Below are positions 29,601 to 59,267 of a stretch of DNA of 64,000 nucleotides, piece by piece. Positions within the stretch are counted from its first letter, which is position 1, and each line of letters begins with the position of its first letter. Position numbers and translations under genes: made by a program. The notes beneath the pieces are model-generated. The model was not told where the DNA came from, did no database searches, and saw only the letters and a list, made by a program, of their open reading frames with translations. Source of the DNA: Bedellia somnulentella (Eukaryota; Arthropoda; Insecta; Lepidoptera; Bedelliidae); contig OY755190.1 of NCBI GenBank assembly GCA_963576735.1, positions 3,031,695-3,095,694 of the forward strand, written 5' to 3'.

Positions 29601-32600
29601 TTGATAGCTTATATAATAGGCTTTACAATGAATGTAATGACAAAGTGTTACGGGTCTTGGTTTAGGAGAAGTGACGATTTTTCTGGAGCGGCCGTTATAT
29701 TTGTTAAACTTGTATACGCTGTCATCTTCTCCGTCGAATATTCCTTACTCTGACGGCAAAGCGGGATACGGTTATACCATCATTTGATAGCCTATATAAT
29801 AAGCTTTACAATGAATGTAACCACAAAGTGTTACGGGTCTTGGTTTAGGAGAAGTGACGATTTTTCTGGAGCGGCCGTTATATTTGTTAAACTTGTATAC
29901 GCTGTCATCTTCTCCGTCGAATATTCCTTACTCTGACGGCAAAGCGGGATACGGTTATACCATTATTTGATAGCCTATATAATAAGCTTTACAATGAATG
30001 TAACCACAAAGTGTTACGGGTCTTGGTTTAGGACAAGTGAGGATTTTTCTGGAGCGGCCGCTATATTTCTTACAGTTGTATACGCTGTCATCTTCTCCGT
30101 CGAATATTCCTTACTCTGACGGCAAAGCGGGATACGGTTATACCATCATTTGATAGCTTATATAATAGGCTTTACAATGAATGTAATGACAAAGTGTTAC
30201 GGGTCTTGGTTTAGGAGAAGTGACGATTTTTCTGGAGCGGCCGTTATATTTGTTAAACTTGTATACGCTGTCATCTTCTCCGTCGAATATTCCTTACTCT
30301 GACGGCAAAGCGGGATACTGTTATACCATCATTTGATAGCCTATATAATAAGCTTTACAATGAATGTCACCACAAAGTGTTACGGGTCTTGGTTTAGGAG
30401 AAGTGACGATTTTTCTGGAGCGGCCGTTATATTTGTTAAACTTGTATACGCTGTCATCTTCTCCGTCGAATATTCCTTACTCTGACGGCAAAGCGGGATA
30501 CGGTTATACCATCATTTGATAGCTTATATAATAGGCTTTACAATGAATGTCATGACAAAAGTGTTACGGGTCTTGGTTTAGGAGAAGTGAGGATTTTTCT
30601 GGAGCGGCCGCCATGTTTCTTACAGTTGTATACGCTGTCATCTTCTCCGTCGAATATTCCTTACTCTGACGGCAAAGCGGGATACGGTTATACCATCATT
30701 TGATAGCTTATATAATAGGCTTTACAATGAATGTAATGACAAAGTGTTACGGGTCTTGGTTTAGGAGAAGTGACGATTTTTCTGGAGCGGCCGTTATATT
30801 TGTTAAACTTGTATACGCTGTCATCTTCTCCGTCGAATATTCCTTACTCTGACGGCAAAGCGGGATACGGTTATACCATCATTTGATAGCCTATATAATA
30901 AGCTTTACAATGAATGTAACCACAAAGTGTTACGGGTCTTGGTTTAGGAGAAGTGACGATTTTTCTGGAGCGGCCGTTATATTTGTTAAACTTGTATACG
31001 CTGTCATCTTCTCCGTCGAATATTCCTTACTCTGACGGCAAAGCGGGATACGGTTATACCATCATTTGATAGCCTATATAATAAGCTTTACAATGAATGT
31101 AACCACAAAGTGTTACGGGTCTTGGTTTAGGAGAAGTGACGATTTTTCTGGAGCGGCCGTTATATTTGTTAAACTTGTATACGCTGTCATCTTCTCCGTC
31201 GAATATTCCTTACTCTGACGGCAAAGCGGGATACGGTTATACCATTATTTGATAGCCTATATAATAAGCTTTACAATGAATGTAACCACAAAGTGTTACG
31301 GGTCTTGGTTTAGGACAAGTGAGGATTTTTCTGGAGCGGCCGCTATATTTCTTACAGTTGTATACGCTGTCATCTTCTCCGTCGAATATTCCTTACTCTG
31401 ACGGCAAAGCGGGATACGGTTATACCATTATTTGATAGCCTATATAATAAGCTTTACAATGAATGTAACCACAAAGTGTTACGGGTTTTGGTTTAGGAGA
31501 GGTGACGATTTTTCTGGAGCGGCCGTTATATTTCTTACAGTTGTATGCGCTGTCATCTTCGCCGTCGAATATTCCTTACTCTGACGGCAAAGCGGGATAC
31601 GGTTATACCATCATTTGATAGCCTATGTAATAAGCTTTACAATGAATGTAACCACAAAGTGTTACGGGTCTTGGTTTAGGACAAGTGAGGATTTTTCTGG
31701 AGCGGCCGCTATATTTCTTACAGTTGTATACGCTGTCATCTTCTCCGTCGAATATTCCTTACTCTGACGGCAAAGCGGGATACAGTTATACCATTATTTG
31801 ATAGCCTATATAATAAGCTTTACAATGAATGTAACCACAAAGTGTTACGGGTCTTGGTTTAGGACAAGTGAGGATTTTTCTGGAGCGGCCGCTATATTTC
31901 TTACAGTTGTATACGCTGTCATCTTCTCCGTCGAATATTCCTTACTCTGACGGCAAAGCGGGATACAGTTATACCATTATTTGATAGCCTATATAATAAG
32001 CTTTACAATGAATGTAACCACAAAGTGTTACGGGTTTTGGTTTAGGAGAAGTGACGATTTTTCTGGAGCGGCCGTTATATTTCTTACAGTTGTATACGCT
32101 GTCATCTTCGCCGTCGAATATTCCTTACTCTGACGGCAAAGCGGGATACGGTTATACCATCATTTGATAGCTTATATAATAGGCTTTACAATGAATTTAA
32201 TGACAAAGTGTTACGGGTCTTGGTTTAGGAGAAGTGACGATTTTTCTGGAGCGGCCGTTATATTTGTTAAACTTGTATACGCTGTCATCTTCTCCGTCGA
32301 ATATTCCTTACTCTGACGGCAAAGCGGGATACAGTTATACCATCATTTGATAGCCTATATAATAAGCTTTACAATGAATGTAACCACAAAGTGTTACGGG
32401 TCTTGGTTTAGGACAAGTGAGGATTTTTCTGGAGCGGCCGCTATATTTCTTACAGTTGTATACGCTGTCATCTTCTCCGTCGAATATTCCTTACTCTGAC
32501 GGCAAAGCGGGATACAGTTATACCATCATTTGATAGCTTATGTAATAAGCTTTACAATGAATGTAATCACAAAGTGTTACGGGTCTTGGTTTAGGAGAAG

Positions 32601-35600
32601 TGACGATTTTTCTGGAGCGGCCGTTATATTTGTTAAACTTGTATACGCTGTCATCTTCTCCGTCGAATATTCCTTACTCTGACGGCAAAGCGGGATACAG
32701 TTATACCATCATTTGATAGCCTATATAATAAGCTTTACAATGAATGTAACCACAAAGTGTTACGGGTCTTGGTTTAGGACAAGTGAGGATTTTTCTGGAG
32801 CGGCCGCTATATTTCTTACAGTTGTATACGCTGTCATCTTCTCCGTCGAATATTCTTTACTCTGACGGCAAAGCGGGATCTTGTTATACCATCATTTGGT
32901 AACTTATGTAATAGGCTTTACAATGAATGTAACCACAAAGTATTACGGGTCTTGGTTTAGGAGAGGTGAGGGTTTTTCTGGAGCGGCTCCCATGCTTAAT
33001 TTCATTTTATCTGCAGGCTTTGGCACTGTCTACAGATGAATATGGATGTATGTCCGGATGAGTATCGATACATATTACATTATAACTAGTAAATACTTTG
33101 GATTTACATGTTATTCTGGTAAATGGAACCACAAAGTATTTTACTTCTTAATTTGGTCGTATTATAATGGCTGCCAGTTTTGGCTGCCAACTTCACACAG
33201 GTGTTTTCCCTCACCTTTAGAAAAGACAAATTGGTGTAGGCCCGACCCAGGATTGGAACTCACGCCCTTCTGTTTTCGGGCGGGTGTTCTACCCACTGGA
33301 CTATCATGTATGTGGGGTATTGCTTTTCTAAGTCGCTGAATGACAGTTAATAATGTCACGTGATTAGTAGAGTAATTGATACGTAACCTACACGTTTTAA
33401 CAGAGTATAAATCTGTTTATTGTTCATGTAAATCCTGGCACTAAGTGTTCACTTAACTTAGAGACAAAAGTTATTATGTTCAACTAACTCGTTTGGTATC
33501 ATTCATATAAAAGTACAGTAATTGAGGCGCATTTTATTGTGTTTTCCTTGGTAACTATTCTGAACATAATGATTTAGTATTGTCGTTATACGATTTATTA
33601 TTATAAAAAACTTGTCTTTACAATAATATTTTCTATCTTTATAATCTTCATCCACATCCAGGCAGTGCCGCAGTACATTGCTGTCGGTGCGTTCAGATGT
33701 TTGTGGTACAATACTGCGCTCTTACTAGCTGGATGCTCTATAGAATTCGGCCATGATGGGTGCTACAAATATTTCTATGGCATTTCTTAAGACTTGGTGG
33801 CGATTCGAATAATCTTGACCCATGAAAAAAATCGACCATTTAAAAAAATCAATGAGAAAAGGTCGTATAATATTTAGAAATAATAATTATGTTAACTTGG
33901 TAACTGAACTTTAACATGAACTTCCCACTATGATTTTATTGATGTATTCCATTAACCGTCAGAATCAATGAAATTTTATAAATTACTAGCCGACCCGACA
34001 GACTACGTACTGCCAAATTGACTTACGACAAAATTTTAGGCGTTTTTTTCCGGTACTCTTAGTTCAATCAGGCGTGTTATATTTTATTGCTCAAATTTTC
34101 CCGGGATAAAATATCCTATTTGATAATTTGGGTCATTATCTAGCGTTCTGCCAAATTCCATTTATATACATCATGTAATTGAGGAGCCTTTTCGCCTCAA
34201 ACATACAAACCTCTAAACTTTCACATTTATAATATTAATAGGATACCATTTTCCTTTCGATTTTGAAATCCACAGGAGCATGTTACTTTAAGCACTGAAG
34301 TGGAATAAACAAACTTAAGCATTTCTAATATTATCAAGATATGATCAGAGACCTAAAATAACATATTAAACACCATATTAAAAATTCACAACCCAACAAT
34401 TCTAACCCCAATTTCCTTCCACAGGCGGTCGCTACTCCTCGGGCCAATACACGTACAAGATCTACCACGTCGCGTCGAAAGTTCCCGCGTTCATTCGGAT
34501 GATCGCGCCCAAAGGATCCTTGGAGATCCACGAGGAGGCCTGGAACGCGTACCCTTACTGCCGGACTGTGCTTTCGGTATGTTATTAGCTGTATTTATAT
34601 AGTAAATTATGCATAGTCAAATAGATTAATTCTGATCTCTAATAGAGTTATGTAATTTTTCATTATCTTCAACTGGAGAGAAGAAAATTCTGCCCTTAAT
34701 ATCGCTACAAAAACCACTTTTATATTTATATAACATAACATAACATAAACGTTCACGCCGAATATCCCCGAAGGGGTTGGCAGAGGTACTAATACTTCTG
34801 AACATCACGTGACTTTGTGACCTGGTGTTCAGAGTACCCACGTTTTGCATGGACAGTGTACTCACGTGATAGGGGGCAGGCCTATCGCCGTTTTGTACGA
34901 ATACACTGTCACATGACTAAGTACAACTCAGCCATGTGGGTTTCCTCACGATGTTTTCCCTCACCGTTAACAACCATGATAAATTAACCACACATATGTC
35001 TTTAGAAAAGACAAATTGGTGTAGGCCCGACCCAGGATTTGAACACTAGTCGTTTGCACGATAACCGAGTGTTCTACCCACTGGGCTATCACGGTTGTAT
35101 ATTTATAATCATTGGCTAGTATATAAAAGATAAGAAAAGCCAAAGATAGACTAAAGTTTCTCTCAGGGCTCTCCAAAGGTTTCTTGACTAAAAGACTTCA
35201 TCGGTTATTATTAAGTGATGTAGCAACCTCTAGTCCGTGATTTTGAGCAAGCATCAGCGGGCTCATTCGCACATATAACATCATCTTCCTAAGATAGTGA
35301 TCGCGTTATCAACGTAACCTCCAAATACAAAACATTAGTTGGTGAACAGTATATATTTGCTGCACCCATAGCATAAAGAAAAGTAACTGAAAGAGGCAAT
35401 GCTGTTTAATCTGTGTACTGATCTTATGTTACCGAAAGAAAGTTTTAGTTCTCTGGGTGAAATCTCTTAAAACAAGATGATTAGTACTCGTTTATTTAAC
35501 CGTGTACAAGCACACATCATTATTATGTAGAAACTAAGATTCAGCACTTTGTTTATGTATATAAACCGCTTTGTTAGTCATTTAAGTTTAGTTCAATACA

Positions 35601-38600
35601 AGAAATTATACCATACACTTGTCGTTTTATTAACACGGTGTAATCAAGATCGATCTTATCAAGTATCTTGTACAGGACACAAGACCCTGTACATAGTGGT
35701 CCTTCGACAAAAAGAATTCAGAGTCTTTGTGTGTCTTGAGTGATTGCGAATCGGTCACCGGCTTCCCACCAGCGGGTTCCACCGGTGTATTGAGAAGGCG
35801 CACGTCCACATCACTTGAGCTAACGCACTGACGCTGATGGTTAACAAGCGACCAAGGAATCAAGTCCACTACAATATCAAGGTTAATTGAACTCATCAAG
35901 ATATCAAGTTATCAAGAGTAGAGAATAGCTGAACCCTATTTCTACGCAATAAGCGCTAAAAAGGTACCTTACTTTTATCAATCATCACGTACAGGAAACA
36001 AGACCTGTACATAGTGAGCTAACGCACTGACGCTGATGGTTAACAAGCTACCAAGGAATCAAGTCCTTCACATTATCAAGATTAATTCAAGGTATCAAGT
36101 TATCAAGAGTAGAAAATAGCTGAACCCTATTTCTACGCAATAAGCGCTAAAAAGGTACCTTACTTTTATCAAGCATCACGTACAGGAAACAAGACCTGTA
36201 CATAGTGAGCTAACGCAAGGACGCTGACAGTTAACAACCGATCAAGGAATCAAGTCCTTTACATTATCAAGGTTGAATCAAGTTAACAGGTTAACAATCA
36301 TCACGTACAGGAAACAAGACCTGTACATAGTGAGCTAACGCACTGACGCTGATGGTTAACAAGCTACCAAGGAATCAAGTCCTTCACATTATCAAGATTA
36401 ATTCAAGATATCGAGTTATTAAGAGTAGAAAATAGCTGAACCCTATTTCTACGTAATAAGCGCTAAAAAAGTACCTTACTTTTATCAAGCATCACGTACA
36501 GGGAACAAGACCTGTACATAGTGAGCTAATGCACTGCCACATGGTTAACAAGCAACCAAGGAATCAAGTCCACTACAATATAAAGGTTTATTGTGCTCAG
36601 CAAGATATCAAGAGCAAGAGTAGACAACAGCTGAACCCTATTTCTACGTAATATTTTTTTATCAAGATCTATCCAGAAACTAGAAATCAATAATCAATGG
36701 AGTTGCCAAAACAAGTTCACGACTATGGAATCCTCACGCCGAAAACAAGAATCATATCGTTCCAAACCAAGCACATCTATGAAAATTTCTACACGTGCCA
36801 AAAATATAGTCCGAAGAAGCAAGTTTATACAAACAGCTAGGTAGCAACATCGCAAGATAGCAAAATGTCATGATTAAGAAACTCAATTGCAGTTTTTGTC
36901 AAAGCAATGAACATAGCATATATTTTTGCACAGAGTTTAATGACCTGACGCCAGCCCAAAGAAGCCAAGCAATAACGAACATTAAAATGTGCTGCATTTG
37001 CTTGTATCAGCACTATGACAAGACAAGATGTCACAATACGATACTGCATGAAGCTTATTAGAACATGCGGCAATAAATTAAACCAAACACTTCACACCAT
37101 ATTACTATAAGGCCGTCTACAGAAGTACTATTGGCCGCAATATTCAAAGTTTTCGGAAATAGAAGATATTGGAAAATCTTCCTAGTTATCTTCCTTCCAA
37201 GATACATCGAGTTTTACAAGAAAACGACAATCCAACTGGAGAAAAGTAGTTATCAAGTGCGGCTACCACTTACAGCAAACCTTAGCGATATAGAATAATC
37301 AAGAAACGCCACCGTTGCACGATTATAAAGAACACGACAAGTCACACTACAAGGGGATCCTCGATTAATTAAAACATGGGTGTTTAGAAATCGGATACCA
37401 TAATGAACTACTTACAAGTAAACAAGATAACGCGCGCTCGTCACCCGAGAACTATCGCACGCGCCGCGGTCTTGTAAATGGGATCGGTTACGTAGCAAGT
37501 GAGCTGTTCGGCGTATTAGACGAAAGATTTGCCGACCAATATAAACAAGATATCGAGTCATTACAAGAAGACCAGAAACATGTCATTACTTTTGAAATAA
37601 GAATCCCTCTTATCAGCAGATATTGTTATGAGATTTTGAAGATATACCAAGTACCCAAATCGAGAGACGGAAAGATGTACAGTGTTGTACCCGTAGCCGA
37701 ATACATAGCTATAAACATGCGACATGACAAGTATGTCAAGATGACGGAAATAGATGTCCGACACTGCACTATGCAGGCAGACACATATTTCTGTCAAAGT
37801 CAGAAACCTGAATACCACTTCAAGGAAGGTAGAAACCTTTGCGAGACTGAAAATTCCGCTTGCAAGACGGAAACAAAACCATGCATCGACACCTGGCATG
37901 AAACACATGCACTGAATACTTATTTATTTTTCTGTTGCCAAACATGCAATGTGAGATCGGTATGTGAAGATCAAATGACATCACTACAGATAAGTGAAGC
38001 AGGACTTGTTACCATAGGTCATGGATGCATTATTAAGACAGATCAGCTAGCAATTTACCCACATAGAATACACTCCAGCGACTTCAAGATAACACCGGAA
38101 ATGTATTTACCCAAAAAGGCACCAATAAACGACATCATAAACATATCGATACCTCATCTCTTATGGCGGGAAAACCAAACAAGTGGTAATAAAAAAAAAC
38201 ATATAGAGATTGATAACATGATCACAGCCTTAAAGGACAAGGAAAATGAGGCTATTATAGAAGGAAGGAAGATATCATATCATGACATACATCACTATGC
38301 CATGATACGAGGGCTGCTATTTATGTATCCGGAATAAAAAAAAGAAACAAACATATATCAATTAATATGGTTTTATTGCTTCTCAAAATATTCGCCGCTC
38401 AGATCTATACACTTTTGCATGCGTTGAAACCAATTTTCATAGCACTTTTTCCACTCAGACTGAGGTATCTCCAAAACGTGCATTTTGAACGCATCGACTG
38501 CCTCTTCGCGGCTCGAAAAACGTTGACCACGTAATTTTTTCTTCACATTTGGAAATAAATAAAAATCATTGGGTGCCAAATCAGGGCTGTACGGCGGATG

Positions 38601-41600
38601 ACCTGTCAATTCGATCTTTTGAGCTTCTAAAAACTGAGTTGTGACGGCCGACCTGTGACAGCTAGCATTGTCGTGATGCAGAATGATTCTACGTTGTCGG
38701 TTAGTCTTTCTTATTTGTTCAAAGACTTCCGGCAAACAAATGGTCGTATACCACTCCGAATTAACAGTTTTACGATTCTCTAAAGGCACTGTAGCTACAT
38801 GGCCATTTATACCAAAAAAACAAGCGACCATTTGCTTCAATGTGCTTTTTGCACGAATAACTTTTGTTGGGTTCGGCTCATCTTGGAACACCCACACCGT
38901 GGACTGCTGCTTAGTTTCGGGGTCGTAAGCGTAGATCCAAGATTCGTCACCTGTGTAGATATTATAAACAGCTTTTGACGCACCACGGTTGTATTTTTTT
39001 AACATTTCTTTGCACCAATCGACACGAGCCTGTTTTTGATCAATACTCAAGTTGTGCGGAATCCAACGGGAGCAAATTTTTTTTACAGCTAAATGTTCAT
39101 CAAGTATCTTATGTATGCTCGTCATACTAATGCCCAGAGATGCCTCTATCTCACGATATGTAACATGACGATCTTGAGTTATTAGTTCCCGGACAGCATC
39201 GATGTTTTGAGGTACAACGACCGTTTTAGGGCGACCTTCTTTAATTTCATCAGTAAGCTTAGATCGTCCACGATTAAACTCGCTAAACCAGTGATACACA
39301 GTGGTCTTTGAGGGTGCTTCATCCCCAAAAGTCGAAGTAAGCTGATCGATGCACTGTTTTTGAGTTAGACCACGCCGAAAATCGTAAAAAATCATGGCAC
39401 GAAAATGTTCACGAGTTAAATCCATGGTGGTGAAGACACGCAATTTTCAAAATGACGCTACGATGTGAAAACAATTGACAGTCACATAAAAATAAATGTA
39501 TTCTAAAGCTAAAGAGTTCTATTTTTAAATGATGTAATTACTTTTTAAATTATTGTTCTGTAAGTGGCCAGTTCCGGATACATAAATAGCAGCCCTCGTA
39601 TACACGCTGATGGGCATAGTCGGTGTCAAAATTATTGTGTACCTGGTACGCCAAATCAAATCAAGGAATGCACCTCCCACGCCGAACACAAGGATTACGA
39701 TCGCCGCGCCAGCCCCCACCGTGCGGGACCCGCCGCCGCCGCCCGCCGTGCCAGAGCATCGGCAGAATGAGGACATCGAGCTACGGACCATACAACGAGA
39801 ACGTCGGGGAATAGGAACGTCACCGTTGTATAGAAAAACGTTTAGTCATGTCTCGGAGTAGTTCTTTTTTCAAGTAGAATAAGTTAAAAATCATATATTG
39901 TTAGTTTTTTCTTATTTGTCCCTCGGGAATATGTACAAGCACACATCATTATTATGTAGAAACTAAGATTCAGCACTTTGTTTATGTATATTTGTTGTAC
40001 AAAAGGTATCTTAGATTTTACATCCACATCCAGGCAGTGCCGCAGTACAATGCTGTCGGTTCGTTCATATGTTTGTGGTACAATACTGCGCTCTTACTAG
40101 CTGGATGTTATATAGCATTCGGCCATGATGGATGCTACAACTATTTCAATAGTTCTTCTTGCATTAAGATCCTTAAGACTTGATGCTTTATTTATTTAAT
40201 TTTACAATTTACAACTAATTCACGCCAATGTAAAATCCGTCGTATATACCCTGTGCTCGTTTCTTCTTACTTTAGTACACAATGAAGTATGATTACAGAA
40301 ATATACACATGTCGTATTGTGGCTCTAATATGTAATTTTCAATTTCAGAACCCCGGCTACATGAAAGATAATTTCGTCATTTGCATAGAGTCCCTGCACG
40401 TTCCTGATGCTGGGGATCAATATAATGTAAGTATTTTATAACAACTCCTATAAATTGGTCTTAATTTTTTTCCCATACTAAACTGCTAATGTCTCGTGGC
40501 ATAGTCATAACGTTATAAGCTATACTGGACACAAATACTCGTGGTAGACGGTGTAACAAAACGTGCAAATGAGACAGCGCACGTCACGTTCTATTCACTC
40601 CTTATGGGTGACGTCACAATCTCGTAGAGATTCGCGTTGTATTGTTTTCTCGAAAATATAGAAAAATGAAATCATAAATTTTAGCCAGAGCTTTGAAATC
40701 ACAAAATTCTTCAGCCTATTTTCGAAATTAAGTGAGGACAAGATGGTAGAAATAAAGTATCGTTGGTGATGGGCCTCCAACCGCATCGTCCAAAAATCAC
40801 TTAAAAAGCCACGATACCCTTAGTCGCCTCTTGCGATCATCGAAAATCTAAGTCGTTTTTAGATATTGCTTGTGGTAGTTTCAGTTTAACATTGATGAAC
40901 GAAACCTTGAAGTTTGAATAGATGTGACTTCGCATTTTCCTGATTAAAATTGTCACAAATTGCAATACATATCATTATGTTAATCACCTAAATCGTGATT
41001 TGAATGTTTAATACGATAACGATTTATCATTGTGTGCAAGTTTTTATGTGTTGAATTTGTTATAACTTTTTTTTATTGCGTTGGATCTTTAAACTTTAAA
41101 CCTCAGAATGCTTTTGATCAGTTGAACATTAAAAATAAATAAAACTTATGTGTTAACCAAAGGTTCTAATGCATTATAAATAAGTTTATCTTTGTAACAT
41201 TACCGCGTCTGTTATCCACTTATTCATACATACATACATATACCGGCTGTAAATCCCTAGAAGGGGTAGCCAGAGCTAAGGAATTAGAAATTCCTCAGCC
41301 ACTTTTGGAAATGAGAGTGGGGAAAAGATGGTAAAAATAAATGTTGTTGGTGATGGGTCTCCAGCCGCATCGCCCAAAAATCCCTTAAAAGCCCAATACC
41401 GTTAGTTGCCTCTTACGTACACCCATCGGTAGAAACGGGGTAGTGATATTCTAAGCCGACACTACACGGCACTACTTATTCATACGAACCTTTAAATTTA
41501 TATACATATATTTAGATGATTTTTGCCAATAAATCGGAGTGATTTAGTTTTCAACTTTACTTGCCTATTAAACATAGACTTAGCGCGATCATCTCACTGC

Positions 41601-44600
41601 ATTGTTCGGTACGTGGCAGCCACTCTAGCTCCTTTGAAGCTCGAAATTTACCAGTCCTGTCCGCAATTTGCCTTGCCTGATTGTTCTTAGTTTAGCAGAT
41701 CTTTGGAACTAAATCAGATAATGCGGTACTTTAATACTATACATCTCGTTAATCGTGTCTTAGTCATTTTTAGTTACTTATATTTTGTGTAAATTGATAA
41801 GACCACTGGTCATGCTTACTTCTATTCCGTAACATAACATGTGTTTAACGTTTTAGTTATGATATGCAAGACAGAGTTTTCTATTCTATTATATTCTTTA
41901 CATACATACATACATATACTCACGGCTGTAAATCCCTAGAAGGGGTAGCCAGAGCTAAGGAATTAGAAATTCCTCAGCCACTTTTGGAAATGATAGTGGG
42001 GAAAAGATGGTAAAAATAAAAGGTTGTTGGTGATGGGTCTCCAACCGCATCGCCCAAAAATCCCTTAAAAGCCCCAATACCGTTAGTCGCCTCTTACGTA
42101 CACCCACCGGAAGAAATGGGGTAGTGCTATTCTAAGCCGACACTACACAGCAAATATGATTAAAATAACTAAACAAATGATTTCTAAAACCAATAAGTCT
42201 AGCTCTTGTTATCTTCAATAAGATTTATTTTGCCTCGCATAATTTTTCATATAACTGTTAAAAAACATCAAGTGTAAAACATCTGACCTTGCAACCAAGA
42301 ATAGTACTAATTAATATCTTAGATTTCGTCTCGTTTTCCTTATTTTAATTTCAAAGTGCCACACGGAACTATTATAATTATTTGTCATTATATTGTTCAT
42401 CATTTAATAGGTGTAATAGCTCGTATCTGAATCTACTAATAGGTCTAGGGGGTTCAAAGGCCGTTTAGGAACACTTAGGACTTAATTTGGCTCATTATCT
42501 TTTAATGCTTGATTCCTTTTTGATCTGTACATCACGTTTGCTACGTGTGAGCTCACACCCGATACATACATATACACATGCCATCATATTCCATTGTGGT
42601 AGGCAGAGACTATTGATCGCCACTTTGTACGATACTGGCAAACCTCTCTAGCTTCTCTTATCTTATCTTTTCATACATGCTCTTTTATTCTTCATACTCC
42701 AGACACCAGCTTTTTTGAGCACACTTGGACCTTTGTAGCTTATATTCAGTCAATGTACGTTGATACATATACTATGATTTCAAAAATGTCTGAGATGTTT
42801 TTATTAGCGTAGAATTAAGAAGTAAGGACATCAGTAATGGTTCTGACAACATCACAGATTACCAGTTCGCATCACATCAATTATTATTATTATTCAAGAT
42901 AATACACTAGCAGCAATATTTTGCTGATGCGTGTATATCACTGCACTTGTTTTAAATATTTGTCAAGTCTGTTTTTAAAAGAGTTCACTGAGGGAGCACT
43001 GATCACTGTCTCTGGTAGTTTGTTCCACACGTCCACAACACGGTTTGGCAAAAAATTGAGTCTCGGATTGCTTGTACACGAGGAGTGTGATAGTTTTAGA
43101 GAATTTTCTCTCAAGTTCCTATTTTTGTTCATTACAAACATATTTTTTAGTCCTGGTACATTGTAGTAGCCCGTCAATATCTTATATGTAATAAGGTCTC
43201 CTCGTTTCCTCCGTTCTTCTAGCGTAGTATTTGTTGTAACAGTGTAGTGTTTTGTAATTACAAAACAGTAACAGTGTGATTGTTGTAACAGTGTAGTGTT
43301 TTAGAGATCTTAACTATTTCTTCCCGCGGTAATCCTATATGGACTAAGGGTTTTAAGGCATGTTAAGTGACTTTTTGGCGATGGAGCTAGAACCTTACCA
43401 TCTTTTATTAGACTATCTTTTCCTATATCACCTTGCAAAATTAATTATGGATTTTTAAGGCTTTAGGCGTCAATATCGCAACATTGAAACAAGTTTACTA
43501 AGTTCCGCTGTTATATGTGAACATAGCTGAAGTAAACATTATCGCAGGATGTCGTAAATCGCAACGATAACATAATATTAAGCGTGGACTTAGAATACTG
43601 ATAACAAATACTCGGTTTCTGCAAGGTTGGTTTGAAATTCGGTAAAAACTTTTTACATAGATTGGTGAATGGGGTCGAGTCGTCTATTAGTATTTTGTAA
43701 TAGTCTTTTGGCATTTGAAACATAATATCTAAATAAGATTAAGTAAAACGTATACAAAATACAAGATAAAACACAAAAAGAGACATAAAAATAACCTCGT
43801 AACCGGTGTGGTACTAGTAATTGGCATTATAAATTATGTAACAAAATTACAACTTTCAGTAAATACCTACTTGTCCACATCTGATATACGGTAGCCACAA
43901 AAAATAAAAATACAGGCATGTAATCTCATATCACAAATGCTCATGGGTATAAATATAAATATTATTATACATACATATACTCACGGCTATATTTCCCTAG
44001 AAGGGGTAACCAGAGGTAAGGAATTATAAATTCCTCAGCCACTTTTGGAAGTTGAGTGGGGAAAAGATGGTGAAAATAAAGGTTTTTGGTGATGGGTCTC
44101 CAACCGCATCGCCCAATAATCCAATAAAAAGCCCCAATACCCTTAGTCGCCTCTTACGACACCCGTGGGTAGAAAGGGGTAGCGACATTCTAAGCCGGCA
44201 GTACACGGCATAAAATTTAAAATATTATCATTTCAGTCACATAAAAGATTCCATTATCAATATTCCATATAGACAAACAACATAGATATCTGATTAATTA
44301 AAATTAGCACATCTTATCCTAAAATTTTCCAAAAAGAAGACTGACATAGTTTATCCGTATTTATAGTGTTATGATTCCGTGTAGTGCCGGCTTAGAATAG
44401 CACTACCCCATTTCTTCCGATGGGTGTACGTAAGAGGCGACTAACGGTATTGGGGCTTTTAATGGATTTTTAGGCGATGCGGTTGGAGAGCCATCACCAA
44501 AAACCTTTCTTTCACCATCTTTTCCCCACTCAACTTTCCAAAAGTGGCTGAGGAATTTCTAATTCCTTAGCTCTGGCTACCCCTTCTAGAGATTTATAGC

Positions 44601-47538
44601 CGTGAGTATATGTATGTATGTAATCTCATATCACAAATACTCATGGGTGGGTATAAATATACGTAATAATTATTTCAGTCAAATAAAAGATTTCATTATC
44701 AATATTCCATATAGACAAACAACATGGATTAGCACATCTTATCATAAAATTCTCCAAAAAGGAGACATAGTTTTTTTTTCTGTCTATTTGATTAAGACTA
44801 CGTATGAGTTCTATTTGACTTTGGGGTACCACACAAACATTATTTTAGGTTGTTATCAGAACAGTTTTCATTTATTAAATTATAAACCTTTCACCTGTCT
44901 TTTGTGGACTTTCCTTTCTCTTGCATTGTATCAATTATATTGTATGGGCAAATTAAGAGTACGGGCAAGGTGGGTCTATTTACTGTATTTCTCATGAATT
45001 TCCACTAAAATTACTATATGCACATCCAGGCAGTGCCGCAGTACATTGCTGTCGGTTCGTTCAGATGTTTGTGGTACAATACTGCGCTCTTACTAGCTGA
45101 CTGCTTTATAGCATTCGGCCATGATGGGTGCTACAGATATTTTGGTTTATTTAGTCTGTTCGTCATTATTTTCTAGGACACTTTATTTTTGCGCGTTAAC
45201 AAAAACAATATTATAAATGTGCAATAACCCTTTACTATATTTCTTTAATACTTTTCAGCGCCCAATTTGCTTTTATTGTCCTCTTGAACGTAACCTTATT
45301 TTCAATAAATAAAACTAAATATATTTCGAATTTACATATTTTTTCAACCTTTGTCCGTCTACTTGCCCCGGTAAATCTCGGAAATAGCTGGACTGATTTT
45401 GATGAGAATTCCTCTGGCAGATATGTGTAGTTGTGAAAGTCTGCCAGCAATAATATTTTTTGTAAATATATTTGAAAACTTTTATAACGCCAATCATAGC
45501 AATTGACATTGTTATCCGTATACACCCTGTATTTCATTACAAAATTATCTCCAAAACAGGTCCACGAACTCTCCCCCGAAAAGCTGAAGATCCGTGAAGT
45601 AGTCAACGTGGATATCGCCAATGACCCTATTCCAGCCAGCGACTACAATCCCAAGTACGACCCAACCAAGTTCAGCTCCAAGAAGGCTGGTAGGGGTCCT
45701 CTTGTAGGGGATAATTGGAAGAGCAAGGTCAACCCGGTCATGACTTGCTACAAACTTGTCACTGCTGAGTTCAAGTGGTTTGGATTGCAGGTAAGAAATT
45801 GGTGTGATTTTAATGATTTTATGACTTGGTACATGGTGCTCTAGACAACAATAGTTTCGTCCTTATCTCTTCTTACATCCATTAATATCATATGCGAAGA
45901 TTCTTTTTGTGATCAGTATTTAGTTGTTGACAGGTTATATCGACTAGTAAGAGCTAATAATTATATCAAAAGTCGTATTCTACAAACATTTGCCTATTTT
46001 ACTACAAATAGCTTTCGTTTAGCCTTGGGGGTGTTTGTGGCCCTAATCAAAGAGATAGAAGAGCTATGGACGAAATTATGATTGTTGTCTTGGCGACTAG
46101 ACTCCTTGATTCACAGGTTTTATGAGTAATATGCAATAATCTTGCTGACAATACGCTAACGTAGATATTATACCTTAGTTTAAGATCTAATATTACTATT
46201 TCCACATCCAGGCAGTGCCGCAGTATAATGCTGTCGGTTCGTTCAGATGTTTGTGGTACAATACTGCGCTCTTACTAGCTGGCTGCTCTGTAGCATTCAG
46301 CCACGATGGGTGCTACAAGTATATTATAGAATAATCCCACTAAAACGCTTACACTATTAACCTTAATCAATACTGTAGGTTGTAAAAAGTGTTAATCAAA
46401 ACTGTAGCAGTAAACTTTGTTAATACAATATGTCTACTATAGTTCCCGGTGTATACCACTATAAGACTACGATATGAGAATATTGGATTATGATTTAAAA
46501 AGCATTACTATTTTAAAATGAAAATATTCATTTATTTCTCTTTCAGAACAAAGTAGAGAGTGTCATCCAAAAATCAGAGCGGCGGTTGTTTACTGTGTTC
46601 CACAGGTCAGTATTATTGATTTTTAATTTGATTACACTGTATTTAAATAATGAGTGAGAACTTCTCACTCATTATTTTAATACACATGAGAAGATATCTT
46701 GGAGTGATCTGGTTTGTGTGAATAATATGACAACCAACAGTAATGTTTTGAAAGTGGATAAAATATGAAGATTAGAGGGTACAGAAAAGATATACTGGCT
46801 AGTGTGCAACTAAGATTTTTCTTAAGATTTATTTTTAAGTCGGTGTAATATTGTAATGTTATCCGCCAATATGTGCGTAAGAGCTTTTACTAGATGGACG
46901 GATGTGAGGTCGCTATAGATTGCTCTATATATAACCTATTATGTACTCATATACGTGTTCAAGATAGGAAATAGGAAGATTTTGATATTTCCACATCCAG
47001 GCAGTGCCGCAGTACATTGCTGTCGGTTCGTTCAGATGTTTGTGGTACAATACCGCGCTCTTACTAGCTGGATGTTATATAGCATTCGGCCACGATGGTT
47101 GCTACAAAATCTATTTAAATTTTAATTGTCCATGTTTGATAAAATAAGTATTAAGTTGTCGTTGTGTTCTCGAAAGTTATTTATATGTTTTGATAGATTG
47201 CCTGGCATAGTGAATAAACCATAAGAGGATTTTGAATTATTTACGCAAAAAGTAAAAAGAATTAGTTTTGAAATACTCAAAATGAGTCCTACTTTTCAAT
47301 ACATAGTGGTAACATTCAAAACAAACTTAACACGAAACTTAAGCTGAATAATCGTGGGTACTTTATACGAAAATAACCCAATCATTAATTTAATTGCAGA
47401 CAAGTATTCTGCACCATGGACGACTGGTACGGCATGACGATGGCCGACATTCGCGCTCTCGAGGAACGCACCAAAGAGGAGCTAGAGCGGCTCCGTCGCG
47501 AGGGCGAAGTGAGAGGCATGTCCGCCGACAACGAGTAA
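8641..47538 (+). CDS. vib: Class I phosphatidylinositol transfer protein (vibrator / PITP), complete eight-exon gene
   Basis: The coding sequence joins 8641-8657, 8967-8997, 11164-11275, 34425-34576, 40349-40426, 45560-45790, 46547-46605 and 47400-47538: 819 nt, 272 aa. All seven introns have GT/AG ends and phase is kept throughout. The product is a single START-like PITP domain of usual length (about 271 aa). Blocks seen include [98 protein letters not shown] and [14 protein letters not shown]. The family exchanges phosphatidylinositol and phosphatidylcholine between membranes and supports phosphoinositide signalling. The fly gene is needed for cytokinesis. Introns 3-7 each carry an H/ACA snoRNA-like copy, so the gene also looks like a snoRNA host. 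Confidence 0.97.
8658..8966 (+). other. vib intron 1
   Basis: This 309-bp intron has a gtacgt donor and tttcag acceptor. A compact hairpin at about 8683-8711 pairs CGGTTG with CAACCG around an AAAATCGATTTT palindrome. No H/ACA copy of the family found in later introns is seen. Confidence 0.8.
8967..8997 (+). CDS. vib: vib exon 2
   Basis: This 31-nt exon lies between tttcag and gtaagt. It completes Tyr-6 and encodes [10 protein letters not shown], ending in phase 0. It is a micro-exon found by splice signals and family similarity. Confidence 0.95.
9572..9650. repeat. LINE 3'-end-like fragment
   Basis: The run gaatagaatagaatatcac, then tttattgcacatcaaacac, resembles 3' tails of insect LINEs with GAATA-type repeats. 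It is short and carries no coding information. Confidence 0.4.
9798..10049. mobile_element. PIF/Harbinger-like MITE, near-perfect hairpin
   Basis: This 252-bp element is in vib intron 2. The ends read GGGCCGGCGCTGACTGCCGG and its reverse complement, flanked by TTA on both sides (9795-9797 and 10050-10052). Arms of about 110 bp pair almost throughout; the left arm has a small extra actttatttt. A 3-bp TTA duplication with GGG-starting termini fits PIF/Harbinger. No transposase is present. Confidence 0.82.
10733..10850 (-). repeat. Family C short repeat
   Basis: It begins catacatacata and contains ctattggggcaggcacatac and ccactttgtagaatcctagc. Related copies lie at 14700 and 42561 with the phrase ttggggtaggcagagac. 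Strand is given with the tetranucleotide tail at the 3' end. Confidence 0.6.
10876..11120 (-). repeat. Family A SINE-like repeat, near full length
   Basis: It runs from the tacatacatata tail and ctcacggctgtaaatccc to ctaagccgacactacacagc. It ends 43 bp before vib exon 3, so it adjoins the splice acceptor region. Confidence 0.85.
11164..11275 (+). CDS. vib: vib exon 3
   Basis: The exon runs from the acceptor ctcacag to the donor gtaagt and encodes [20 protein letters not shown] and [17 protein letters not shown] plus the first base of Gly. The glycine-rich ETGGGEG loop is diagnostic of class I PITPs. Confidence 0.97.
12150..12305 (+). repeat. Family A SINE-like repeat, degraded
   Basis: Recognisable only by phrases such as gggtaatgtggctggagatcc, catcatcaaccatc and cataatcttttcccctctgaac. 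Heavily mutated, so an old insertion. Confidence 0.5.
12946..14216 (-). mobile_element. mariner element, TIRs intact, transposase broken
   Basis: This 1271-bp element has terminal inverted repeats that begin CGAGGGTGGGTCAATAAGTC at the left and match at the right with one visible difference (gggtgggtc against gggcgggtc). It is flanked by TA at 12944-12945 and 14217-14218, the mariner target duplication. The transposase frame is on the minus strand. The length is normal for a full-size mariner. Confidence 0.95.
13012..14038 (-). pseudogene. mariner transposase (DD34D), inactivated
   Basis: The longest open part is 13922-13095 (275 aa). It shows the HTH region, the linker WVPRLL, the first catalytic Asp in VDETWIHH, the second in [10 protein letters not shown] and the third in [14 protein letters not shown], 34 residues apart (DD34D). 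The N-terminal part continues upstream to an ATG at 14038 but is broken by stops at codon 5 and just before MVKKW, and by a one-base shift in an A run. The last 25 or so codons are cut off by a stop and a poly-A run at about 13083-13097. The sequence looks closest to the irritans-type mariners, by eye only. It should be inactive. Confidence 0.92.
14700..14800 (-). repeat. Family C short repeat
   Basis: A run of (taca)n is followed by tattctcacgccgtcagttc, ccattggggtaggcagagac and atcgatcgccaccttgtg. Same family as 10733 and 42561. Confidence 0.65.
15478..15605. repeat. GC-rich block related to dispersed repeat X
   Basis: The start, ggcgccgttggttcagcga, resembles the terminus of repeat X (ggtgccgttagttcagcga at 54725). 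It is followed by gagggggtgctgcccccgcg and other CG-rich sequence, unlike the AT-rich intron around it. No gene is visible. Confidence 0.5.
15838..16203 (-). repeat. Family B tRNA-derived SINE, full length
   Basis: The plus strand runs from ataacataaacataaacg and gttcacgccg to ttctacccactggactatca. Read on the minus strand it starts with a tRNA-like A box region (gatagtccagtgggtagaac) and B-box-like sequence. It then has a non-tRNA body and ends in a (ttatg)-rich tail. The gggggcaggcctatcgccg core identifies the family. Confidence 0.85.
16298..16540 (+). repeat. Family A SINE-like repeat attached to repeat X
   Basis: It runs from gtgtcgtgtcggcttagaat to gtgagtatatgtatgtatata. The same junction with repeat X recurs in inverted orientation at 61050, so the insertion predates spread of the composite. 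Confidence 0.82.
16541..17240 (-). repeat. Dispersed repeat X, uninterrupted copy
   Basis: Its reverse complement is found in three pieces on the plus strand: 54721-55101, about 59000-59267 and 61002-61050. Shared landmarks are acctctaattacactcttt, gcgcgcgccttgtgttacag and cgtgcgtacggttagcatta. This copy lacks the P-like and LINE insertions present at 54.7-61 kb and so acts as an empty site. The minus-strand 122-aa frame across 16629-16997 is repeat sequence, not a gene. Confidence 0.82.
17378..17600 (-). repeat. Family A SINE-like repeat with target-site duplication
   Basis: The copy is flanked by caatttttatttaacat (17361-17377) and caatttttattttacat (17601-17617), a 17-bp direct repeat with one mismatch. 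That is the signature of retroposition. Sequence variants are shared with the 16298 copy. Confidence 0.85.
18003..18150. repeat. LINE 3'-end-like fragment
   Basis: The run tatttatttaaacactttat, tgtatacagatggaaacag and gaggcggacttatcgccgta resembles 3' ends of insect non-LTR elements. No reverse transcriptase is attached. Confidence 0.45.
18695..18740 (+). repeat. Family B SINE 3' fragment
   Basis: Contains accttcggggctggacggcg and tgaacgtttg, the 3' end of the tRNA-SINE. Confidence 0.5.
18849..19126 (+). repeat. Family B tRNA-derived SINE, sense orientation
   Basis: It starts cgtgatagtccaatgagtag (A-box region) and has attcaaatcccgggttgggc (B-box region and tRNA 3' side). The body includes ggcgataggcctgcccccat and it ends cgccgtgaacgcttgag. 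Confidence 0.82.
19730..19840. mobile_element. MITE D, partial copy
   Basis: Shares gaatgagat...tacgatact, gtaagtgcgaaagagatggc and tacgcgatatctagtt with the copies at 22795 and 23020. Ends are not clear here. Confidence 0.55.
20985..21115 (-). repeat. Family A SINE-like repeat, partial
   Basis: Contains ctcggctataaatcccaaaa, aggggtagctagagcttgag and a diverged end cttagccgaaagtacaccgc. Degraded and shortened. Confidence 0.65.
21617..21824 (-). repeat. Family A SINE-like repeat, internally deleted
   Basis: Begins with catacatacatacatacata, then ctcacggctgtaaatcccta, and ends cgacactacacagca. About 50 bp are missing after ccaaccacatcg. Confidence 0.8.
22226..22460 (+). repeat. Family B SINE, tRNA head missing
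   Basis: Contains gagggaaaacattgtgagga, aaacggcgataggcctgctc, caggtgacaatgtcacgtg and ttcggggatgttcggcgtg. It lacks the tRNA-like 5' part, as expected of a 5'-truncated retroposon. Confidence 0.75.
22795..22935. mobile_element. MITE D copy
   Basis: Shares gagcgctattttatcgacat, ggttagaatgagatagcagt and cacgcgatatctagttaaaa with the copy at 23020. Terminal pairing is weaker than in that copy. Confidence 0.6.
23021..23146. mobile_element. MITE D copy with inverted termini
   Basis: This roughly 126-bp element has inverted ends AGCACGAGC and GCTCGTGCT. Internal phrases also invert (ttatcg...cgataac against gcgataactag). It is the best preserved of three copies within 3.5 kb. Confidence 0.68.
23606..24051. 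mobile_element. MITE-like element with 16-bp TIRs
   Basis: AATAGGCTATTTGACT at 23606-23621 is exactly inverted at 24036-24051. The 446-bp body has no long ORF. The host duplication is unclear, so the superfamily is not assigned. Confidence 0.68.
24241..24660. repeat. SINE end, LINE-like tail and TG-rich tract
   Basis: ctaagccgacactacacgg at 24244-24262 is the terminus of family A alone. 24296-24420 (gatagataagacatttattg, then gcctgtgtcgcatgaatcta) resembles a LINE 3' end. 24541-24660 is a degenerate tgtg/gagt-rich simple repeat. Confidence 0.45.
25405..25760 (+). repeat. Family A SINE-like repeat, interrupted
   Basis: The 5' part (ccgtgtagtgccggcttaga to gcgactaagggtag) and the 3' part (gggcgtaagggtatgaggct to ggccgtgagaatacg) are separated by about 95 bp of unrelated sequence. 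The frames of about 90-100 aa over it are shadows. Confidence 0.72.
26150..26304 (-). repeat. Family B SINE, piece left of the fold-back element
   Basis: Contains gcgccatctagtgtccagag, gatagggggcaggcctatcg and cctcacgatgttttccct, and stops abruptly at 26304. The rest of the SINE resumes at 33203, after the fold-back element. Confidence 0.88.
26510..28690 (+). repeat. Direct tandem array, 12 units of about 183 bp
   Basis: Units begin about gccgctccagaaaaatc, near 26519, 26703, 26886, 27069, 27252, 27434, 27618, 27800, 27984, 28167, 28349 and 28533. Each has aaaccaagacccgtaacact, tacattcattgtaaagctta, ccgctttgccgtcagagtaa and gaagatgacagcgtatacaa. Units 1-4 and 5-8 are nearly identical as blocks, a 732-bp higher-order repeat. 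Each unit carries CCGTC...GACGG around GAATATTC. Confidence 0.95.
28691..28795. other. Central spacer of the fold-back element
   Basis: About 105 bp of unique AT-rich sequence (cttaactatgaaatttatg through cctattatatg) between the two inverted arrays. No promoter or ORF is recognised. It would be the loop of the giant hairpin. Confidence 0.8.
28796..33000 (-). repeat. Inverted tandem array, 23 units of about 183 bp
   Basis: Units begin about gtatacgctgtcatcttc, near 28797, 28979, 29163, 29346, 29530 and so on to 32825, a steady period of about 183 bp. They are the reverse complement of the 12 left units. Variant combinations recur as blocks, for example 29163-29880 against 30262-30980, so the array also grew in multi-unit steps. 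It is almost twice as long as the left array. Confidence 0.95.
33203..33308 (-). repeat. Family B SINE, piece right of the fold-back element
   Basis: Starts with the duplicated gttttccct and continues caaattggtgtaggcccgac and ttctacccactggactatca, the tRNA-like head on the minus strand. It completes the SINE cut at 26304, with a small internal deletion after tcacc. Confidence 0.88.
33652..33770 (+). ncRNA. Box H/ACA snoRNA-like copy 1 (vib intron 3)
   Basis: This 119-nt sequence is shared by five vib introns. The 5' hairpin has a CCACA/TGTGG base and CCGCAG/CTG-CGG upper stem. The H box ACAATA is at 33708-33713. The 3' hairpin has GCGCTC paired with GGGTGC and GCTGGATGCT facing AGAATTCGGC. 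ACA at 33765-33767 lies 3 nt from the end. It is 655 nt upstream of exon 4. By family, such RNAs guide pseudouridylation of rRNA or snRNA; the target is unknown. Confidence 0.85.
33988..34240. repeat. Dispersed repeat, RTE/SINE-like tail
   Basis: Runs from ctagccgacccgacagacta to cacatttataatattaatag. The terminal wording and bounded shape are typical of widespread insect retroposons. No coding part. Confidence 0.5.
34425..34576 (+). CDS. vib: vib exon 4
   Basis: The acceptor is cacag and the donor gtatgt. The exon encodes [39 protein letters not shown] and [11 protein letters not shown]. It is clearly richer in GC than the flanking introns and lies 23 kb downstream of exon 3. Confidence 0.97.
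34730..35094 (-). repeat. Family B tRNA-derived SINE, full length
   Basis: Runs from taacataacataaacgttc and acgccgaatatccccgaagg to ttctacccactgggctatca. The tRNA-like head is on the minus strand; ccaggatttgaacactagtc is the B-box region. It has the same body as the 15838 copy. Confidence 0.88.
35503..35562 (+). repeat. 5' LTR start
   Basis: First 60 bp of the left LTR, identical to 39932-39991. The sequence just after it (gtttatgtatataaacc) looks like an LTR TATA box. The 3' limit of this LTR cannot be set because the right copy is truncated. Confidence 0.7.
35660..36660 (+). repeat. Tandem repeat in LTR leader, period about 185 bp
   Basis: At least four copies of a unit with cgtacaggaaacaagacctg, tacatagtgagctaacgcac, gatggttaacaagctaccaa and gaaccctatttctacgcaat. 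A diverged first copy is at about 35670, then about 35990, 36172, 36300 and 36490. One copy is shortened. Many units carry atcaag repeats. Confidence 0.85.
36870..37061 (+). pseudogene. gag-like zinc-knuckle fragment
   Basis: The 63-aa frame contains [17 protein letters not shown] followed by [15 protein letters not shown]. This C-x2-C-x(n)-H-x(n)-C double-knuckle layout, with a short ALxP/R-rich linker between, is typical of the gag region of BEL/Pao elements. Capsid and all pol domains are absent. It is a leftover of the LTR element. Confidence 0.6.
38308..39598 (-). mobile_element. mariner element with intact TIRs and transposase
   Basis: This 1291-bp element is flanked by TA at 38306-38307 and 39599-39600. 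The terminal inverted repeats are identical for 27 bp, starting CGAGGGCTGCTATTTATGTA. The single long ORF is on the minus strand. It is inserted in the envelope frame of an LTR element, so it is younger than that element. Identical TIRs and an unbroken ORF suggest recent arrival. Confidence 0.96.
38373..39425 (-). CDS. mariner transposase (DD34D), apparently intact, 350 aa
   Basis: ATG at 39425 is chosen because it begins [19 protein letters not shown], the usual mariner N-terminus; an upstream TTG would add six residues. Domains: paired HTH DNA-binding region (about residues 1-110, with GRP-type AT-hook-like GRPK), linker SRWIPHNL, catalytic core with Asp in [14 protein letters not shown], in [11 protein letters not shown] and in [14 protein letters not shown] (34 residues between the last two). 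C-terminus is [12 protein letters not shown]. Length and motifs are complete. It would bind the element's TIRs and cut and paste it into TA sites. Activity cannot be shown from sequence. Confidence 0.94.
   Translation of the reverse strand: MDLTREHFRAMIFYDFRRGLTQKQCIDQLTSTFGDEAPSKTTVYHWFSEFNRGRSKLTDEIKEGRPKTVVVPQNIDAVRELITQDRHVTYREIEASLGISMTSIHKILDEHLAVKKICSRWIPHNLSIDQKQARVDWCKEMLKKYNRGASKAVYNIYTGDESWIYAYDPETKQQSTVWVFQDEPNPTKVIRAKSTLKQMVACFFGINGHVATVPLENRKTVNSEWYTTICLPEVFEQIRKTNRQRRIILHHDNASCHRSAVTTQFLEAQKIELTGHPPYSPDLAPNDFYLFPNVKKKLRGQRFSSREEAVDAFKMHVLEIPQSEWKKCYENWFQRMQKCIDLSGEYFEKQ
39932..39991 (+). repeat. 3' LTR, truncated to 60 bp
   Basis: Identical to the first 60 bp at 35503. It is followed directly by unrelated intron sequence and, 32 bp later, by an H/ACA-like copy. 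A deletion removed the rest of the LTR. Confidence 0.72.
40024..40142 (+). ncRNA. Box H/ACA snoRNA-like copy 2 (vib intron 4)
   Basis: 119 nt, no indel relative to the other copies. H box ACAATA at 40080-40085, ACA at 40137-40139 and 3 nt after it. In the 3' stem GCTGGATGTT pairs with AGCATTCGGC; the C-to-T change turns a C-G pair into U-G. It lies 206 nt upstream of exon 5. The overlapping 63-aa frame is not taken as a gene. Confidence 0.85.
40349..40426 (+). CDS. vib: vib exon 5
   Basis: This 78-nt, phase 0 exon lies between tttcag and gtaagt. It encodes [15 protein letters not shown] and [11 protein letters not shown]. Confidence 0.95.
40679..40845 (-). repeat. Family A SINE-like repeat, degraded
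   Basis: Recognisable by tagccagagctttgaaatca, gatgggcctccaaccgcatc and tacccttagtcgcctcttgc. Both ends are missing. Confidence 0.65.
41226..41470 (-). repeat. Family A SINE-like repeat, near full length
   Basis: Runs from catacatacatacatatacc, ggctgtaaatccctagaagg, to ctaagccgacactacacggc. Very similar to the copy at 41900. Confidence 0.88.
41900..42151 (-). repeat. Family A SINE-like repeat, near full length
   Basis: Runs from tacatacatacatacatata, ctcacggctgtaaatcccta, to ctaagccgacactacacagc. Closest in sequence to 10876 and 41226, so these are probably a young subfamily. Confidence 0.9.
42561..42680 (-). repeat. Family C short repeat
   Basis: Contains gatacatacatatacacatg, ccattgtggtaggcagagac and tattgatcgccactttgtac, then a cttatc-rich end. 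Matches 10733 and 14700. Confidence 0.65.
42938..43238 (-). pseudogene. LINE ORF2 C-terminal fragment
   Basis: The frame reads [20 protein letters not shown], then [20 protein letters not shown] and [15 protein letters not shown]. This is the region just after the reverse transcriptase of CR1/Jockey-type LINEs (ERRxRGDLI...VVxxWNxLP...SFKxRLD). No RT core is attached. A 5'-truncated retrotransposon remnant. Confidence 0.82.
43968..44210 (-). repeat. Family A SINE-like repeat inside duplicated sequence
   Basis: Runs from catacatatactcacggct to ctaagccggcagtacacggc. The other copy of the duplicated sequence lacks it. Confidence 0.85.
44377..44620 (+). repeat. Family A SINE-like repeat between duplicated segments
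   Basis: Runs from ccgtgtagtgccggcttaga to gtgagtatatgtatgtatg. Opposite in orientation to 43968; the two could form a long hairpin in a transcript. Confidence 0.87.
45020..45138 (+). ncRNA. Box H/ACA snoRNA-like copy 3 (vib intron 5)
   Basis: 119 nt. ACAATA and terminal ACA (45133-45135) are conserved. The 3' stem is GCTGACTGCT against AGCATTCGGC, in which one change (G to A) keeps a pair with U and one makes a mismatch. The first base is G instead of C, weakening the 5' closing pair. It lies 422 nt before exon 6. Confidence 0.83.
45560..45790 (+). CDS. vib: vib exon 6
   Basis: This 231-nt, phase 0 exon is the longest of the gene. It encodes [20 protein letters not shown], then [40 protein letters not shown] and [11 protein letters not shown]. 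The DPTKFxSxKxGRGPL block corresponds to a regulatory-loop region of the family that carries a known phosphorylation site in vertebrates. Confidence 0.97.
46202..46320 (+). ncRNA. Box H/ACA snoRNA-like copy 4 (vib intron 6)
   Basis: 119 nt in a 756-bp intron that holds nothing else recognisable. H box ACAATA and ACA at 46315-46317. In the 3' upper stem GCTG faces CAGC instead of CGGC, so a U-G pair has become U-A. It lies 226 nt before exon 7. Confidence 0.87.
46547..46605 (+). CDS. vib: vib exon 7
   Basis: This 59-nt exon lies between tttcag and gtcagt. It encodes [19 protein letters not shown] and two bases of Arg. Confidence 0.95.
46991..47109 (+). ncRNA. Box H/ACA snoRNA-like copy 5 (vib intron 7)
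   Basis: 119 nt in a 794-bp intron without other repeats. H box ACAATA and ACA at 47104-47106. The 3' upper stem is GCTGGATGTT against AGCATTCGGC. One change in the basal stem (GGTTGC instead of GGGTGC) leaves a mismatch. It lies 290 nt before exon 8. Confidence 0.85.
47400..47538 (+). CDS. vib: vib exon 8 (stop codon)
   Basis: The acceptor is attgcag. The exon completes Arg and encodes [20 protein letters not shown], then [20 protein letters not shown] and SADNE, with TAA at 47536-47538. This is the amphipathic C-terminal helix region of PITPs. Confidence 0.96.
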
Positions 47539-59004: not shown

Positions 59005-59267
59005 CTCGGCGAGCTGCTTTAGGGGATGGACATGGACCTATGTCGCGCGCGCCTTGTGTTACAGATCTTACAATTTACGCGCGTGCGGCGCCGTTAGTGT
59101 GCGAGTGACCTATCTGTATACGATGCGCGTCAATGTAGGCGTGAGAGTGACCGTGCGTACGGTTAGCATTAGCAAATATAAAAGAATTCATTCAATTCAT
59201 AGATTGCACTCATTTTTATATTTTATTTATTAATATATTAGGAATGGGAAAAAGAACAAAACCGTTA
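59005..59267 (+). repeat. Dispersed repeat X, middle piece
   Basis: Matches the reverse complement of about 16590-16850: ctcggcgagctgctttaggg, gcgcgcgccttgtgttacag, aatgggaaaaagaacaaaac. It is cut after ccgttaa by the LINE insertion. Confidence 0.83.

Follow-up and report, generated by a model that had tools for sequence, protein, structure and literature searches.

The question raised by this locus is what the 119-nt sequence might be that recurs in five successive introns of a single lepidopteran gene. The window, that is, the whole 64-kb stretch of Bedellia somnulentella DNA analysed here, contains the gene and all five copies. On the evidence of the sequence, the copies are very probably genes for box H/ACA snoRNAs, lodged within introns 3–7 of a vib-like PITP gene, and their expression is predicted. 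The observations beneath this reading are the sequence of the copies, their positions, their exclusivity in the genome and their fit to the H/ACA rules.

The host gene was delimited by protein matches. A tblastn search with a human PITP protein located six coding stretches, all in order and on the plus strand, and an N-terminal peptide located a seventh, short exon. With their borders set at splice sites taken from the sequence, these are exon 2 (8967–8997, the peptide match), exon 3 (11164–11275), exon 4 (34425–34576), exon 5 (40349–40426), exon 6 (45560–45790), exon 7 (46547–46605) and the last coding exon, up to the stop codon (47400–47538). Exon 6, the largest, also matches Pfam IP_trans (E 4.4e-28). 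An exon 1 with the start codon would lie upstream of exon 2. These matches point to a vib-like PITP gene, which would encode a lipid-transfer protein, vib being the fly name.

The 119-nt sequence occurs once in every one of the final five introns that separate coding exons, numbers 3–7 when the putative exon 1 is counted. On that count, the splice-site reading agrees with the first-pass annotation, which had assigned one copy to each of introns 3–7. The distance from the copy to the next exon is 654, 206, 421, 226 and 290 nt for copies 1–5, so that the earlier estimate of 200–660 nt becomes a measured range of 206–654 nt.

All five copies are present on the plus strand, in the sense orientation of the gene, each 119 nt long and alignable without gaps, as had been claimed. 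Copy 1 lies in intron 3 (33652–33770), copy 2 in intron 4 (40024–40142), copy 3 in intron 5 (45020–45138), copy 4 in intron 6 (46202–46320) and copy 5 in intron 7 (46991–47109). Any two of them differ at 7–11 of 119 positions, and therefore the "same sequence" of the earlier description means 91–94% identity between copies; 101 of the 119 alignment columns are invariant across the five. The flanks are a different matter. When compared in 10-nt blocks, their similarity is low past about 10 nt on each side, the best first blocks agreeing at 9/10 positions upstream (copies 3 and 4) and 8/10 downstream (copies 1 and 2). The description of the surrounding intron sequence as unrelated is thus borne out beyond about 10 nt either side.

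A DNA search of the whole genome (548,867,130 bases in 486 contigs) with copy 1 as the query, a search that far-diverged copies could escape, returned five candidates and five matches, which are the five vib-intron copies. A pattern search with the snoRNA core gave no match in bacterial and archaeal genome contigs.

Box H/ACA RNAs have a hinge box of the form ANANNA, an ACA located 3 nt from the 3' end and a guide pocket placed 14–16 nt upstream of the box. The consensus fold of the five copies, obtained with RNAalifold, comprises two hairpins, a hinge and a tail. The hinge box ACAATA, which fits ANANNA, occupies nt 57–62 in all five copies (33708–33713 in copy 1, and starting at 40080, 45076, 46258 and 47047 in copies 2–5). 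The ACA triplet is found at nt 114–116 of 119, again in all five (33765–33767 in copy 1, and starting at 40137, 45133, 46315 and 47104 in the others), which is 3 nt from the inferred 3' end. Both boxes are therefore as invariant, and the ACA as close to the end, as the first reading of the sequence had held. In the energy-best fold with this architecture, upper stem base and box are 15 nt apart in the 5' hairpin (H box, 57-42) and 14 nt apart in the 3' hairpin (ACA, 114-100).

Thermodynamic measures lend no support to this class and in part speak against it. The H/ACA fold is the minimum-energy fold in copy 1 only; in copies 2–5 another fold is better by 3.9, 0.9, 0.8 and 5.4 kcal/mol, respectively. 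The free energies of the copies are near the level of shuffled sequences (z from -0.52 to -1.87), and among 200 shuffles per copy 45, 16, 30, 56 and 6 fold as well as copies 1–5, the lowest number belonging to copy 5.

The pattern of substitution in the stems leads to a similar assessment. The consensus fold has 34 pairs, of which 27 are unvarying, three show a one-sided change with pairing kept and four deviate by breakage only. Counted over pairs and copies, there are 170 cells, with pairing intact in 164 and broken in six: 1-55 in copy 3, 68-109 in copies 2 and 5, 82-95 in copies 3 and 4, and 84-93 in copy 1. The pair 68-109 belongs to the lower stem of the 3' hairpin. No compensatory (double) change was found among the 34 pairs in the five copies, and every one of 500 column shuffles matched all the observed covariation measures. 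Covariation is uninformative here because the five copies are too alike. The pairing-preserving changes to which the first-pass annotation had drawn attention (U-G to U-A in copy 4, C-G to U-G in copies 2 and 5, G-U to A-U in copy 3) are real, but the argument built on them is weaker than claimed, since it omitted the six broken cells and there are no compensatory changes.

The fit to the H/ACA class was also assessed with a scanner built from general H/ACA rules (a hinge box and an ACA, each with an upper stem whose base lies 14–16 nt before it and with a lower stem close by) and applied to both strands of the 64-kb window. Under the strict rules, 34 box pairs passed on the plus strand, headed by copies 4, 1 and 3, and copies 2 and 5 failed. 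Because of this failure the rules were relaxed: one mismatch was allowed in lower stems of at least six pairs and the limit on lower-stem energy was moved from -3 to -1.5. The five copies then led the 42 passing ACA sites of the plus strand, with scores of -40.3, -40.2, -40.1, -35.3 and -35.3, an unrelated plus-strand site at 15001-15076 (-35.3) tying with the weakest copies, 2 and 5, at the printed precision. On the minus strand, 34 sites passed, and two of them, at 26239-26300 (-38.6) and 15418-15477 (-37.0), outscored copies 2 and 5. These three high-scoring places may be chance or hairpin-rich repeats.

Among 24 dinucleotide-shuffled windows, scanned on both strands, one contained a site scoring -40.1 and another a site scoring -38.9, and -34.8 was the best score in the remaining 22. 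A site at least equal to the weakest copy (-35.3 or lower) was consequently present in 2/24 shuffled windows and one at or below -40.0 in 1/24, which means that, by this measure alone, chance should produce a site of such grade in about one of every 12–24 windows. Conservation across the five copies adds to the H/ACA case, although the copies are not independent of one another.

The family has no counterpart among the Rfam models. A search of the whole window gave no match at the gathering score, and a relaxed search (E up to 10) of copies 1 and 5 gave sub-threshold matches only. The sole H/ACA family in the relaxed search was the worm ceN101, over copy 5, with an E value of 4.2, its score of 12.8 bits falling short of the cut-off of 70. 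An Rfam match is needed for assignment to a named family, not for membership of the box H/ACA class.

Possible targets were sought in the rRNAs and snRNAs of the same genome. The rDNA was located by pattern and taken from two sequences (L015 and L021), in which 28S can be read except for its last part; that part could not be located in the assembly and was replaced by an arthropod sequence and L004, scanned in nine registers. The exact 18S motif occurs at 33 places in the genome and the exact 28S core motif at one. The rDNA unit L015 departs from 28S sequence shortly past the conserved region at which insect R1/R2 elements insert.

For the 5' hairpin, registers in keeping with the 14–16 nt spacing (nt 6-9 with 43 on) gave no good or perfect site in the genome's own 18S, 5.8S and readable 28S. 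When every register was scanned in which the base of the upper stem can pair, the top site was the same 28S place in all five copies, UGAAC-U-A-UGCCUGG. The match extends over 12 nt and is perfect in each copy, with 5 + 7 Watson–Crick pairs: nt 40-44 pair upstream of the candidate uridine and nt 7-13 downstream. This uridine is the U of UGAACUAUGCCUGG, about U1102 if numbering begins where the Rfam match does. The proposed left arm is CCAGGCA (33658–33664 in copy 1) and the proposed right arm GUUCA (33691–33695 in copy 1), both on the plus strand and at equal offsets in the other copies, and both invariant in all five.

In this register, 18 nt separate the base of the upper stem from the H box (57-39), 2–4 nt above the usual 14–16. 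A lower stem ACAUC/GAUGU (nt 3-7 with 45-49) can directly adjoin the pocket, as an alternative to CCACA/UGUGG. Copy 2 loses one pair of ACAUC/GAUGU, and its change G45U falls outside the pairing arms. Shuffling of the arms, carried out over all registers with copy 4 alone, gave a match as good in 9/300 cases; in the 28S register alone, any perfect site was obtained in 4/2000. The register was picked after the search, so that about 0.03 (9/300) is the fairer chance figure, with the second hairpin uncounted. In the nine-register scan, 3/60 shuffles did as well as the 28S register. The runner-up was an 18S site (local position 1373), scoring 30.0 versus 31 for the 28S site in copies 3–5 and 31.5 in copy 2. 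The change U38G in copy 1 would abolish this 18S pairing and spare the 28S one. The 18S site was dropped because copy 1 cannot form it and because it leaves two unpaired nucleotides at the top of the pocket. Guidance of pseudouridylation at about U1102 of 28S rRNA by the 5' hairpin is accordingly put forward as a tentative assignment. The literature consulted, PMC2653536 and PMC9045821 included, did not show whether man or yeast has a pseudouridine at the corresponding place.

We regard the 3' pocket as an orphan. Its rule-obeying registers (nt 71-76 with 101-106) gave no good site in the genome's own 18S, 5.8S and readable 28S, and no convincing target emerged in the rRNA searched or in the genome's own U1, U2 and U6, the three snRNAs scanned. 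The top site for the 3' hairpin, at 28S local position 3254 (score 27.5–30.0), was rejected, as it requires a different upper stem and was equalled by 46/300 shuffles of copy 4. A 28S site near GGUGGUAGUAG was set aside with one mismatch, three unpaired target nucleotides and 5/60 shuffles equal to it. A first scan, on stand-in sequences and protist-like 28S, had suggested for this pocket a site in a stand-in U2 and a place in L003; the genome's own U2 has an extra A there, and its scan shows no such site. The comparison of pockets with rRNA and snRNA proposed in the first-pass annotation has thus yielded a candidate 28S match for the 5' pocket and nothing convincing for the 3' pocket.

The 28S match could itself be fortuitous, the RNA being a snoRNA or scaRNA of the H/ACA class with some other target, such as an snRNA or the end of 28S. 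The 18-nt spacing from the H box and the fact that registers obeying 14–16 nt have no perfect rRNA site both favour this view, as does the chance figure just given for one hairpin; on the other side, the genome's own U1, U2 and U6 lack a convincing site. Such a different target is a possibility to be taken seriously, though not one we would assume. A further doubt concerns how many of the copies are functional. One or two of them could be active and the rest decaying pseudogenes kept alike by gene conversion, and the broken lower stem of the 3' hairpin in copies 2 and 5, together with the change in copy 2 that adjoins the 5' pocket, speaks for that view. The H box, the ACA and both proposed arms of the 5' pocket are nevertheless unchanged in all five, which makes decay of most of the family unlikely.

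Two alternatives would remove the copies from the snoRNA class or change their mode of origin. A SINE or snoRNA-derived retroposon that landed several times in one gene would account for a conserved unit whose ends are sharp and whose flanks are unrelated, the structure expected from insertion of a copied mature RNA. Many copies elsewhere in the genome had been named at the outset as the mark of such a mobile element, yet the search with copy 1 found five places, all in introns of this gene and all in sense. Since the matches are confined in this way, a high-copy SINE is refuted. Furthermore, inspection of the flanks by eye shows neither an A-rich tail nor a direct repeat of at least 6 nt. Repeated landing of a mobile retroposon is therefore extremely improbable, while a one-off local retroposition could still have been the route of duplication. 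The regular occurrence of one copy in each successive intron could also suggest a repeated cis element, acting as a splicing enhancer or through pairing between introns and never released as an RNA. Against this reading, the spacing of boxes and hairpins fits the H/ACA rules at least as well as that of any other plus-strand site in the window, and the distance to the next exon varies from one intron to another. In addition, all the copies have the same orientation and so are not complementary to one another, which argues against pairing between introns. A cis element is, on this evidence, very improbable.

The preferred reading remains that of an intron-processed H/ACA snoRNA family multiplied from intron to intron, as originally suggested; it is supported by the boxes, the two hairpins and the pocket distances of the energy-best fold, by confinement to five places and by published precedents, with expression as a prediction. 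We infer that the family is transcribed, processed, assembled into RNPs and functional. Each copy would be freed by splicing of its intron, debranching and exonuclease trimming, with the RNA ends shielded by the H/ACA proteins dyskerin, NHP2, NOP10 and GAR1. The product would be an RNA of about 119 nt with the order hairpin–hinge–hairpin–tail. The family would have arisen by repeated copying inside one host gene, after which the RNA unit alone would have been kept while the flanks diverged. The multiple copies probably raise dosage. In its fullest form, this proposal describes an H/ACA family outside Rfam that fills the last five vib introns, raises guide dosage, guides 28S modification at about U1102 through an 18-nt 5' pocket and has a nearly invariant 3' pocket for a target outside the rRNA searched; that all of these elements hold together is rather doubtful.

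The arrangement has precedents. One-per-intron placement and multiplication within a host are already established in flies and vertebrates. PMC1821038 describes DmSnR60 a–d, four box C/D isoforms in introns 6–9 of Drosophila mfl. As in the vib family, a single snoRNA has its isoforms spread over consecutive introns of one protein-coding gene, with one isoform in each. The DmSnR60 isoforms guide methylation as box C/D RNAs, lie some 70 nt ahead of the 3' splice site and have the pseudouridine synthase gene itself as host, whereas the vib family is of the box H/ACA type, has a lipid-transfer host and stands 206–654 nt away from the exon that follows. Vertebrates, chicken among them, have snoRNA paralogs cis-duplicated into different introns of one host gene, and the authors of that study infer purifying selection on the guide regions and structure (PMC2653536). 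The same paper reports 28 box C/D versus only 6 box H/ACA among the duplicated snoRNAs of chicken, with about 90% of H/ACA snoRNAs in single copy. These cis-duplicates resemble the vib family in their duplication within one gene and differ in being vertebrate families. In fly S2 cells, 95% of the expressed snoRNAs are intronic, as stated in PMC13228274; its main text has no word starting with "vib".

Parallels within the H/ACA class reportedly exist in Drosophila, where Huang et al. (2005) are said to have described multi-isoform families whose members share the introns of a single gene. Those families belong to other genes and have other sequences than the vib family, for which Rfam gives no sequence match. 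In a collection with a minority of the snoRNA papers, no H/ACA snoRNA in vib was named among the matches listed, and no report of the vib family was found for Lepidoptera among them. The family is most likely a new addition to a known arrangement.

What the locus offers is a clean and countable case of snoRNA multiplication in one host, with five copies, no other match in the genome and diverged flanks. If expressed, it would allow asking why some guides stay multicopy. The family would also tie a lipid-transfer housekeeping gene to RNA modification and fill an annotation gap, because Rfam 15 has no match at cut-off, while knowledge of how H/ACA RNAs work stays unchanged by it.

The introns and surroundings of the gene contain several further features. 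A tandem array in intron 3 (28726–33053) ends about 600 nt before copy 1 and is composed of 23 overlapping 300-nt blocks with a spacing of 183–184 nt, 19 of the 23 matching the reference block at 95% or more. In intron 4, an open frame of 322 aa (37369–38337, plus strand) has no Pfam match and may be a fragment of an insect retroviral-type envelope. Two long open frames of the minus strand (13095–13922 and 38373–39446) have translations that we take to resemble mariner-type transposases. Elsewhere in the window, a plus-strand frame at 59151–60581 is a reverse transcriptase (Pfam RVT_1, E 1.1e-33), and another at 56408–56872 matches Pfam TNP-like_GBD (E 3.2e-08), which suggests a DNA transposon fragment. 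Finally, a minus-strand frame at 5623–5982 matches Pfam GMP_PDE_delta (E 2e-16) and probably belongs to a neighbouring gene on the opposite strand.
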